Positions 6,456 through 9,504 of a stretch of DNA of 10,498 bases are shown here, in pieces. How positions within the stretch are numbered: the stretch's first letter is position 1; each line of letters opens with the position of its first letter. Source of the stretch: an uncultured Clostridium sp. (GTDB taxonomy: Bacteria > Bacillota > Clostridia > Clostridiales > Clostridiaceae); assembly GCA_934777095.1 (NCBI GenBank), contig CAKVNP010000048.1:1-10498 (forward strand), in the 5' to 3' direction. Under the pieces are notes generated by a model that had not been told where the DNA came from, ran no database searches, and saw nothing but the letters and a program-made list of their open reading frames with translations. The position numbers and the translations under genes were made by a program.

Positions 6456-6484
6456 TTGACAATTGGAATAATAAGGAATAAAAT
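6456..6484 (+). promoter_or_regulatory. SigA promoter of the T-box/aspS transcript
   Basis: A consensus TTGACA (6456-6461), a 17-base spacer, and TAAAAT (6479-6484). Transcription would begin near 6491, directly before the T-box leader. A TATAAT at 6484-6489 overlaps but is 22 bases from the -35, so it is the less likely -10. Confidence 0.8.
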
Positions 6485-6711
6485 ATAATAAATTAAATAA
6501 TATAATTCTTTGAAGGGAAAAGTAAATATTATCTTAGTATGTAAAGCGATTAGAGGATGGTGGAAGCTCTAAGAGAAAAGTAATATTGAAGGACATTCTG
6601 GAGAAGCCTATTTGAAAACAAGTAGAATAGGACGTATTCCTACGTTATAAGGAATAGAGATGATAAATAATATATATTACTTATCTAAATTAGGATGGCA
6701 CCGTGAATAAT

Positions 6712-6743
6712 ACCTTCACTCCTACAGGGAGTGAAGGTTTTTT
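6712..6743 (+). terminator. T-box terminator 1
   Basis: ACCTTCACTCC (6712-6722) pairs with GGAGTGAAGGT (6728-6738), then six Ts. The competing antiterminator is exact: AGGA (6692-6695) with TCCT (6720-6723), and GTG (6703-6705) with CAC (6717-6719), flanking the seven-base bulge TGGCACC. Forming one destroys the other. Confidence 0.92.
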
Positions 6744-6800
6744 ATTTTAATTAAGTATTATATTATTTATTAATATAGGGTGGTACCGCAAAATTTTTTG

Positions 6801-6838
6801 CCCCTTGAGTATGCGCAGACTCAAGGGGTTATTTTTTT
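6801..6838 (+). terminator. T-box terminator 2
   Basis: CCCCTTGAGT (6801-6810), an 8-base loop, ACTCAAGGGG (6819-6828), then TTATTTTTTT. The second antiterminator competes: AGGG (6777-6780) with CCCT (6802-6805), and GCA (6788-6790) with TGC (6799-6801), around the bulge TGGTACC. It lies immediately before the aspS ribosome binding site. Confidence 0.92.
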
Positions 6839-6854: not shown

Positions 6855-8123
6855 ATGAAGAGAAATTTAATAAGAGAATTAAAAGAGCTTATGGGAAAAG
6901 TAGTTAAGGTTGAAGGATATGTTCATAAAATCAGAGTATTAAAATATATAACATTTATTGTAGTAAGGGATAGAAGTGGACTAGTGCAGTGTGTTGCAGA
7001 AAATAGTTCTATAAACTTAAAAAATTTAAAGCTGGAATCTGTTGTTTCAATAGTTGGTGAAGTTAAGGCAAGTAAGAATTCCTTAAATCCTTTTGAAATT
7101 TCAATAAATAAGGTGGAGATAATCAGCGAAGTAAAAGAAGTTAATAAGGAAAATCTAACAGTGAATTTAGATACAATGCTGGATAATAGGGTGTTAAGTT
7201 TAAGGAATGAAAAAAAGCAGACCATATTTAAGGTGCAAAATATAATAGTAGAAAGTTTTAGAGAGTTTTTAGCCAATAGAGAGTTTACTGAAATTTTTAC
7301 ACCAAAGATTGTGGCAGAAGGAGCAGAGGGGGGGACAGAAGTATTTGAAGTAAAATACTTTGAAAATAAGGCGTATTTAGCACAGAGTCCCCAATTTTAT
7401 AAGCAGATGATGGTAAGCGTATTTGAAAGAGTATTTGAGGTAGGACAGGTTTATAGGGCAGAAGAGCATAATACTAATAGGCATTTAAATGAATATGTGA
7501 GCATGGACTTGGAATTTGGTTATATTGAAGATGAAAATGACCTAATGGAATTAGAAGAAGAATTACTTAAATACATCTTTACAAATCTTAAGGTTAAGGG
7601 AGAAAAATATTTTGATTTATTAAATGTTGAAGCACCGGTATTAAATTATAAAATCCCCAAAATAAAGCTAAGTGACGCTATAAAAATATTGGAGGAAAAA
7701 TTTAACAAAAAGTTAGCAGGAGATTTGGACCCAGAGGGAGAAAAACTTATATGTAATTATGTCAAAAAAACATATGGGTCAGAGTTTGTTTTTTTGACAC
7801 ATTATCCAAGAAAAAAGAGACCTATGTATACCATGCCTTATGGGGAAAAAGAAACACATAGTTTCGATTTATTATATAGGGGTATCGAAATAACTACCGG
7901 CGGGCAGCGTATTAATGACTATGACATGCTGATAGAAAATATGAAGTATAAAGGGTTAAATCCTGAAGATTATAGCTCTTATACTGAAGTGTTCAAATAT
8001 GGTATGCCAAAGCATGGAGGTCTAGCTATCGGGTTGGAAAGAATAACTGCTAAAGTATTAGGACTTGCTAATGTTAGAGAAGCAGCGCTTTTTACTAGGG
8101 ATAGAAATAGGATAAGACCTTAA
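6855..8123 (+). CDS. aspS: Aspartyl-tRNA synthetase, archaeal-type, probably non-discriminating (Asp/Asn)
   Basis: This 422-residue class II synthetase charges tRNA with aspartate. An N-terminal OB-fold anticodon-binding domain (residues ~1-100: VKVEGYVHKIRVLKYITFIVVRDRSGLVQC) is followed by the catalytic core: motif 1 around FTEIFTPKIVAEGAEGGTEVF, motif 2 VGQVYRAEEHNTNRHLNEY, and motif 3 GLAIGLERI. It lacks the large GAD insertion of the bacterial AspRS, so it is the archaeal/eukaryal type. His24 stands where tRNA-Asp-specific archaeal enzymes have a Trp, which points to a non-discriminating enzyme that also makes Asp-tRNA-Asn for the GatCAB amidotransferase. That is family knowledge, not proof. 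No gatCAB follows here. The ATG at 6855 is chosen over the in-frame GTG at 6780, which lies inside the T-box; GGAGG precedes 6855 at the right distance. Confidence 0.93.
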   Translation: MKRNLIRELKELMGKVVKVEGYVHKIRVLKYITFIVVRDRSGLVQCVAENSSINLKNLKLESVVSIVGEVKASKNSLNPFEISINKVEIISEVKEVNKENLTVNLDTMLDNRVLSLRNEKKQTIFKVQNIIVESFREFLANREFTEIFTPKIVAEGAEGGTEVFEVKYFENKAYLAQSPQFYKQMMVSVFERVFEVGQVYRAEEHNTNRHLNEYVSMDLEFGYIEDENDLMELEEELLKYIFTNLKVKGEKYFDLLNVEAPVLNYKIPKIKLSDAIKILEEKFNKKLAGDLDPEGEKLICNYVKKTYGSEFVFLTHYPRKKRPMYTMPYGEKETHSFDLLYRGIEITTGGQRINDYDMLIENMKYKGLNPEDYSSYTEVFKYGMPKHGGLAIGLERITAKVLGLANVREAALFTRDRNRIRP

Positions 8124-8294: not shown

Positions 8295-9504
8295 ATGAGG
8301 AGAAAGTTAGTTAGTAGTTTGGGGGTATTATTAGGAATATCACTAGCAGGATGTTCAATAAGTGCTGTAAATACTAGTTGGAATGGTGATGAATTAAAGG
8401 TATGGTTATATGTTACTGAAGAGGAATTTGCTGATTTTAATAAGATAGTTGATGAATGGGCAGCGGAGAATAATCAGCAGGTTGAGGTTAGTAGGAAAGA
8501 GGGAGATATCGGTGAGTATATAGCGATGTCTCTAGATGAAAAAGGACCAGATATTGTCTGGGGAGCTGGTGGGGAAGAGATCGCCCAGCTTTTTGATTAT
8601 GATTTGATTGAAGAGGCAGATACAAGTTATATAGATGGCAATGAATATCTTACTGAAGATTTAATTCAAGCGGCTTCTATTGAGGGAGTGCAGTATTCTT
8701 TTCCAATTAGCCAGGAAACAGTAGCTGTTTATTATAATAAGGAGTTGGTAGATAAAGTTCCAGAGTCTATGGAGCAATTAGTTGATATTGGGAAGGAAAA
8801 AGGATTTTATTATGGGATTACAGATGCTTATTTATCTATGGGCTTTTTGACAAGTGGAAACTGTTATTTATTTGCTAAAGAGGGTAATGGATATAATATA
8901 AAAGATTTAGGAATGAATAATAGCGATGTAGAAAAAATATATGAATTTTTAGGTGACTTGGTTTTAAAAGATAAGTTAATGCCGGAAGATGTTAATGACA
9001 ATATAGGAAATGCCCAATTTTATAATGGAAATTCTGCTTTTTATTTAGCTACTTCTAGGCAGATGGCTGGTTTTAGAAATGCCACTGTGAATTTTTCAGT
9101 TATTCCGATACCAACTTTATTTAATAATGAAGTAAAGCCTTTTAAGCAGATTGATGTAGCCTTTGTTTCACCTAAATCTAATAAAAAAGATAATTCCTAT
9201 AAATTATTAGCTGATATTTTAGATAATTCTAGTGAAATAGTCTGGAAGCAAGGGGAATCAAATTCCTGTACTAAAAAAGTATGCTGAAGAGGATAGTTTG
9301 GCTAATGATGAAATTTTACAAGGATTTATTAGTCAATGTAATAATGCACAACTAGTACCAGATATTTTTGAAATGACCTCCGTATGGAATGTAGTAAATG
9401 CAAATTTATCACTACTTATCCAAGGTGATATAGCACCTAAGGAGTGTGCAGATAATATTCAAAAGCAAATAGAAGATAATATTGATTTTAGCAGAAGCAA
9501 TTAA
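8295..9504 (+). pseudogene. Extracellular solute-binding lipoprotein (ABC sugar-importer type), frameshifted
   Basis: The N-terminus is a lipoprotein signal peptide (MRRKLVSSLGVLLGISLAGC, lipobox LAGC, Cys20), so the product would be anchored outside the membrane. The body resembles MalE-type substrate-binding proteins: LKVWLYVTEEEFADFNKIVDEW, the DIVWGAGGEEIAQLFDYDLIEE hinge region, YSFPISQETVAVYYNKEL, and AQFYNGNSAFYLATSRQMAGF. Near residue 317 the frame is lost at GGGG (9250-9253): the first frame ends at 9285-9287, while another resumes as GNQIPVLKKYAEEDSLANDEILQGF and continues to 9504. Deleting one G gives a 402-residue protein, a normal length. RBS GGTGGGAG lies at 8284-8291. No permease or ATPase genes are next to it, so the transported sugar is unknown. 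Confidence 0.82.

Follow-up and report, generated by a model that had tools for sequence, protein, structure and literature searches.

The window analysed here is a stretch of 10,498 nucleotides from an uncultured Clostridium sp. (GenBank assembly GCA_934777095.1, contig CAKVNP010000048.1). It carries the gene aspS for a non-discriminating aspartyl-tRNA synthetase (AspRS), an aspartate--tRNA(Asn) ligase, at 6855-8123 (NF003483, E 1.3e-169, and TIGR00458, E 1.1e-122, both over cut-off). The leader of this gene, at 6501-6838, is a T-box with a single stem I followed by two complete antiterminator/terminator modules; it and the gene lie on the plus strand. A promoter-like site for the whole leader, TTGACA-17-TAAAAT, is predicted upstream of stem I at 6456-6484 on the same strand (11/12 in a consensus scan that is unspecific in this leader, with 13 sites found against 4.0 in shuffles). 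The leader is best explained as a T-box riboswitch that acts on transcription and responds to tRNA-Asp, a single recognition half being followed by two serial 3' halves, and the 5' arm of stem III would be handed from the first module to the second; we give this explanation as a whole a probability of about 0.7.

One stem I and two antiterminator/terminator modules

The Rfam T-box model RF00230 matched the window once, at 6501-6726, with 107.7 bits against a cut-off of 93, a score that places the leader in the family. The match spans stem I, stem II, stem IIA/B, stem III and module 1. Its alignment sets the only stem I of the leader at 6501-6606, and the specifier, identified by eye in its loop, is GAC (Asp) at 6592-6594, followed by A6595; this codon fits the regulated gene. 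Stem II and the stem IIA/B pseudoknot region occupy 6605-6657, the pseudoknot pairing having been assigned by eye. The purine string RRRxG (AGATG, 6658-6662; motif as defined in PMC7583486) and the stem III 5' arm together cover 6658-6674, the proposed shared 5' half of the discriminator. In the alignment stem III begins at G6662, and 6662-6668 pair with 6679-6685, two of the pairs being non-standard; in the minimum-energy fold the register is shifted, and 6658-6663 pair with 6681-6686. From both sources the stem III 3' arm of module 1, with the AA at 6687-6688, was placed at 6681-6688.

T-box 1 (6692-6705) opens antiterminator 1 (6692-6723), in which helix A1 (6692-6695/6720-6723) and helix A2 (6703-6707/6715-6719) flank the bulge UGGCACC (6696-6702). 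Terminator 1 follows as a hairpin at 6712-6738 with a U tract reaching 6745. T-box 2 (6777-6790) lies 85 nt after T-box 1 and opens antiterminator 2 (6777-6805), with A1 at 6777-6780/6802-6805, the bulge UGGUACC at 6781-6787 and A2 at 6788-6792/6797-6801; the hairpin of terminator 2 spans 6800-6829 and its U tract ends at 6838. Both modules thus have a 7-nt bulge, four A1 pairs and five A2 pairs, the pairing that the T-box model demands and that the original prediction had described. A terminator scan of the leader found these two terminators, against a mean of 0.1 in shuffles, and strands 6715-6723 and 6800-6805 belong to both an antiterminator and a terminator, so that the two structures are mutually exclusive in each module.

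The gap between the modules, 6744-6776, is 33 nt long and too short for a stem I, again as predicted; a hidden second stem I is ruled out for lack of room. With this gap and a single RF00230 match the leader is not a full tandem T-box, in which each unit has its own stem I. It does fit the class of T-boxes with a duplicated terminator-antiterminator element, said to be defined by one stem I and two such elements. The layout claimed from the sequence, one stem I serving two modules, was therefore recovered in full: one family match, two T-boxes and two terminators. A chance origin of the double module is ruled out by the two terminators where 0.1 are expected and by the relatives described below, in which both antiterminators can always form.

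Double-module leaders in relatives

Leaders of this kind were collected from relatives, giving 71 including that of the window; 16 near-copies, several of them the same locus retrieved twice, were dropped before statistics, leaving 55 non-redundant leaders. One source was a protein-anchored set, in which AspRS alignment relatives were located in genome contigs and 700 nt upstream of the best 80 of 584 loci were examined. Two T-box cores were present in 20 of these 80 regions, one in 39 and none in 21; among the nearest 20 relatives, 18 had two. No triple module was found in the best 80 regions. Leader L009, scored as single-core in this count, has a second core 324 nt downstream, and a Clostridiales-2 RNA (RF02937) lies between its two cores, at L009:212-293.

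The other source was a pattern search for two close cores. A strict pattern matched only 2 of 14 genomes; it missed wider spacing and GAATGG cores and was relaxed for this reason. With a short gap the relaxed pattern matched 15 of 206 genomes of one family (backward control pattern, no matches), and with a longer gap 31 of 204 (backward control, 2 matches); two of the 17 short-gap matches (L101, L102) were not T-box pairs, and one of the 31 longer-gap matches was left out. Two class-wide searches matched 13 of 391 and 11 of 341 genomes, mainly by chance: only L085, L087, L137, L138 and L139 passed the T-box pair test in the first, and only L155 and L158 of the new loci L154-L158 in the second. 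Pattern-found loci cannot serve as evidence that the T-box 2 core is conserved, since the pattern requires the core.

Both antiterminator helices can form in all 55 non-redundant leaders. In a scan of 57 of the 71 leaders, RF00230 matched exactly once in 52, fell below cut-off in five (L017, L018, L019, L100 and L115) and matched twice in none. The original prediction had named a decayed stem I in homologous leaders, or missing conservation of module 2, as evidence that would tell against it; as far as Rfam sees, with 52 of 57 leaders matched and five below cut-off, the first was not borne out, and neither was the second, many relatives having a module 2. As a check, the original prediction had suggested looking for the layout before archaeal-type aspS in related clostridia; 65 of the 71 leaders precede an AspRS of the same kind. 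Five precede other genes, and L116 has no open reading frame (ORF) in reach. Of the other genes, that of L087 encodes an ornithine cyclodeaminase (above cut-off) and that of L139 a PutP-like symporter (ORF open at the end of the fetched piece, below model cut-off), L138 being similar by eye; L089 precedes a sodium/solute symporter gene (below cut-off), and L090 is similar by eye.

A regular expression found a GAC specifier in 60 of 71 rows; by eye, L089 and L139 were wrong, and L018, L019, L020 and L085 have GAC. The specifier looks CCC-like (Pro) by eye in L087, L138 and L139, and is perhaps one for Phe in L089 and L090. In L032, L084, L114 and L121 a double-module T-box with an AAC (Asn) specifier, again by eye, precedes a non-discriminating AspRS. 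Genome G010 carries one double-module leader with AAC (L084) and another with GAC (L086, the L012 locus), so that each of the enzyme's two tRNAs seems to have a paralogue attuned to it. A further T-box lies beyond aspS in L011 and L015.

The tRNA-facing bases of the two modules differ in the window (TGGC against TGGT), and the original prediction raised the idea that the second gate responds to tRNA differently. The difference is real there, and among 50 non-redundant aspS leaders it is a tendency rather than a rule: the last letter of UGGN is C in 23 and T in 27 of module 1, and C in 10 and T in 40 of module 2 (Fisher p 0.01). In one relative, G002, both tRNA-Asp and tRNA-Asn carry GCCA by eye; with these tRNAs, taken from the relative and not from the window genome, UGGC pairs fully and UGGU through a G-U wobble. 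Since GCCA is common to both tRNAs and both letters occur in both modules, a second gate that reads tRNA differently has little support, and a different tRNA for gate 2 was rejected as a reading of TGGC/TGGT.

Complementarity of the stem III 5' arm to the second module

The stretch before T-box 2 was first seen by eye to be complementary to the stem III 5' arm of module 1. In the window, 6661-6674 can pair with 6759-6772 in 14 contiguous pairs, one of them G-U. The module 2 arm, at 6759-6773, ends with AA at 6772-6773. In the leaders generally, the proposed hand-over helix occupies the usual place of stem III in a T-box, some 4 nt ahead of AGGG. Across the non-redundant leaders, duplexes between the stem III 5' arm and the 22 nt that immediately precede T-box 2 had a mean energy of -8.5 kcal/mol for a leader's own arm versus -4.4 for the arms of other leaders, and the own arm had a median rank of 0.04 among the others. 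The signal was local. When the downstream window was moved so that it ended 8 to 60 nt short of T-box 2, the energies, sampled every 4 nt, were -4.1 to -5.1, so that the signal was gone within 8 nt; upstream windows with ends 24 to 150 nt short of T-box 1 gave -3.7 to -4.4, with no signal, and reversed arms -5.2. In 50 of 55 leaders the duplex, counted without loop cost, outweighed the local fold of stem III. In a fresh set from another family, which is small and mostly related to L004 (L149 excluded for Ns, L155 unchecked as a true T-box pair), the shuffle p was below 0.05 in 7 of 10 rows, or 5 of 8 after L147 and L158, loci already used, were removed, in broad agreement with the larger set.

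Covariation was examined in motif-anchored columns of 54 of the 55 leaders (L114 has no anchor, and a few anchors, e.g. those of L004, L104 and L105, are visibly misplaced). Of ten positions 7.1 were paired without slip, against 5.4 when arms were permuted, and 8.0 against 6.1 when a slip of one was allowed to both. Twelve divergent leaders gave 8.2 paired against 6.0 (equalled or bettered by 0 of 5000 permutations), and the six most divergent 8.2 against 6.4 (equalled or bettered by 8 of 5000). At the fifth position 49 of 54 leaders pair (27.9 expected), through T-A in 26 and A-T in 16. Related leaders are not independent, and an arm swap within nearest pairs was therefore the best guard: in 27 disjoint pairs the own arm was better in 21, the swapped arm in 3, and 3 were equal (p 0.0003), whereas a control window 18 nt upstream favoured the own arm in 10 and the swapped arm in 13.

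Folding was consistent with an exchange of partners. In ensemble folding the 5' arm made 7.7 pairs with its own 3' arm when the RNA ended in module 1, and 1.7 once module 2 was present; the hand-over helix then had 8.9 pairs versus 3.1 for shuffled arms, with at least four pairs in 42 of 55 leaders. When the window RNA is cut at 6724, its fold has antiterminator 1 and a stem III whose register is slightly off that of Rfam; extended to 6811, the RNA forms the 14-pair helix with terminator 1 enclosed (z -4.5). In two of the 52 Rfam matches, L092 and L095, Infernal itself paired the stem III 5' arm with the module 2 arm and skipped module 1, with inserts of 79 and 64 nt.

Module 2 also lacks parts that a T-box discriminator has. 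No private stem III is seen in it, its pre-T-box stretch showing no hairpin signal of its own (mean z 0.11, against -1.47 in module 1; 55 leaders). The stretch ahead of stem III contains RRRxG in 38 of the 55 module 1s, the corresponding stretch in 12 of the 55 module 2s; none was seen by eye in module 2 of the window. In 54 of 55 module 2s the T-box directly follows an AA (background 0.28). By the order 5'-RRRxG-stem III-AA-antiterminator given in the accessible part of PMC7583486, module 2, with neither an RRRxG nor a local stem III of its own, is no complete discriminator domain. It has the 3' half, to judge from these motifs, and the hand-over helix would supply the 5' half. Stem III is reported there to be indispensable for tRNA binding by the antiterminator; because module 2 shows none of its own, a hand-over is proposed.

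A proposed hand-over of stem III and its relation to known systems

Stem I would bind tRNA-Asp through the GAC specifier, as family knowledge suggests. Stem III would form locally, antiterminator 1 would test the 3' end of the tRNA, and with an uncharged tRNA the polymerase would pass terminator 1. This much is the known T-box mechanism, of which the window leader displays the pairing potential alone. Once transcribed, the arm at 6759-6772 would pair with the stem III 5' arm and oust the 3' arm of module 1, a displacement suggested by complementarity and equilibrium folding; module 1 would be looped out, and the hairpin of terminator 1 could fold harmlessly behind the polymerase. Stem III would thereby be rebuilt with module 2, its RRRxG string kept, and antiterminator 2 would take the place of antiterminator 1, so that the tRNA still held by stem I would be tested a second time. 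The leak of the closed state would be multiplied over two terminators, and the bound tRNA would need no second recruitment; the leader would then repress tightly and lose little when open.

One 5' half-discriminator would thus serve two 3' halves in turn, with the same tRNA read twice, and the shared arm is likely the reason why one sensor can serve both gates. The original prediction, in which one tRNA opens two gates in turn, remains the best reading of the data, although it missed the shared stem III arm. That the events follow this order, that one strand displaces another and that gate 2 reads this same tRNA are our inferences. We also lean, a little less firmly than to the hand-over as such, towards the general form of the idea, a split and re-usable discriminator whose 5' half is passed on co-transcriptionally by strand displacement, giving two readings of one bound tRNA; this would be an RNA-based proofreading of aminoacylation and would explain partially tandem T-boxes.

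Several observations weigh against the hand-over. Against dinucleotide shuffles only 26 of 55 leaders reach p < 0.05 singly, single leaders being weak because the sequences are AU-rich, and nine show nothing (z at or above 0: L002, L005, L032, L084, L094, L098, L120, L124 and L130). No loop-closing cost enters the duplex energies, and neither tRNA nor pseudoknots nor transcription kinetics figure in the energy models. Fewer than four hand-over pairs form in the ensembles of 13 of 55 leaders, and shuffled arms reach a mean of four in 16 of 55. Site-by-site sister contrasts are modest, with 82 of 118 changes keeping the pair (69%) versus 49-62% in shifted registers. The tRNA-free minimum-energy fold of the window RNA to 6811 does not contain canonical antiterminator 2, and the other 50 of the 52 Rfam matches are aligned, by coordinates, to module 1 as in any T-box. 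The helix could also exist without the proposed order of events.

In one alternative the hand-over helix is real but belongs to the closed state: the module 2 arm would capture the stem III 5' arm, break antiterminator 1 and free the tRNA, and module 2 would be a fail-safe terminator, a reset and not a second reading. The duplex that beats the local stem III fold in most leaders, and that forms in silico without tRNA, suits such a role, as does a cyclic di-GMP (c-di-GMP) riboswitch described in the accessible part of PMC11218506, in which 28 bp separate two terminators and the second one dominates in vivo. We consider this alternative unlikely, since a plain fail-safe terminator needs neither the T-box helices, which can form in 55 of 55 module 2s, nor the AA, kept in 54 of 55, and the helix lies at the usual place of stem III. 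It is less probable still that module 2, which does own a complete antiterminator and terminator, senses tRNA 3' ends by itself, with no part played by stem I or the shared stem III: there is no sign of a local stem III in module 2, and its arm varies in step with the stem III 5' arm found in its own leader.

Descent was weighed as a further source of the complementarity. Full tandem T-boxes are known (accessible part of PMC7583486) and the two modules are similar, so that the leader might be a relic of a full tandem from which the second stem I was deleted, with a decaying module 2 and a complementarity inherited from a common stem III. Yet the 3' arms of the two modules share little identity (0.51 versus 0.43 across leaders), this identity does not correlate with duplex energy, and the 34 leaders with an identity of at most 0.5 still gave -8.5 for their own arms and -4.5 across leaders. 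Low identity unrelated to energy speaks against copying by descent, and a decaying module 2 sits badly with a layout held by 55 non-redundant leaders with both antiterminators formable in each; we regard such a relic as very improbable. Most improbable of all is a second promoter between the modules that serves module 2 alone, a possibility the original prediction had itself named as damaging. The consensus scan of the window found no plus-strand promoter-like site in 6744-6776, its sole match in the gap being on the minus strand (9/12), and the cores are only 67 nt apart in L018 and 63 nt in L019.

If the hand-over that we favour is true, a riboswitch can read one ligand twice while a single transcript is made, which would be an easy way to sharpen a switch, and RNA devices could be designed on a new principle, in which an expression platform is looped out after use. 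The enzyme chiefly regulated in this way also puts Asp on tRNA-Asn, and an excess could cause mistranslation; tight repression would therefore make sense.

Elsewhere in the window, four further observations were made. At about 7131-7145 the encoded AspRS is five residues shorter than a relative of 97% identity (P0001): after VKE it has V, the relative ELPIEI. An ABC-F-like ORF of 236 aa at 1315-2025 covers only part of the family models and looks truncated. Within 8295-9504, the ORF of a MalE-like substrate-binding protein ends at 9287 and the next begins at 9298 in a different frame, possibly as parts of one split gene. A short minus-strand ORF at 6102-6329 matches MntA-type nucleotidyltransferase models below cut-off.

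The window leader shares with the T-box of RF00230 stem I with its specifier, stem II, stem IIA/B, stem III, the T-box and the antiterminator/terminator switch, and adds to it a second 3' half that has no stem I or stem III. Saad et al. reportedly described, in 2013, a two-codon T-box of Clostridium acetobutylicum, which is likewise clostridial and unusual in its use of tRNA; with one T-box for two tRNAs it would be the converse of the window leader. T-boxes with duplicated terminator-antiterminator elements are said to have been named by Vitreschak et al. in 2008 (RNA 14:717). They appear to be the same class as the 'partially tandem T-boxes' of PMC7583486, with one recognition half and two modules; the accessible part of that article states that their modes of action remain unknown, gives no mechanism and does not mention a shared stem III arm, which we propose for the window leader as a concrete, testable mechanism for the class. 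A shared stem III or a hand-over in T-boxes was not found in the parts of the literature searched, among them passages of PMC2494555, PMC7778990, PMC11477304 and PMC2965389 besides the articles cited here, which is no proof of absence, most subscription journals lying outside its reach.

Full tandem T-boxes and tandem riboswitches, as far as the accessible parts of PMC9481103 and PMC12452182 describe them, also place transcription gates in series within one leader, but with a sensor for each gate, whereas the window leader has one sensor for two gates. In the dual-terminator c-di-GMP-I riboswitch Bc1, likewise, one aptamer is followed by two terminators about 30 nt apart; it differs in that no duplicated ligand-reading antiterminator is described in the accessible part of PMC11218506 and in that its regulation is both transcriptional and translational. 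The bare double-module architecture is not new; what is added here is the proposed hand-over by way of a shared stem III arm.
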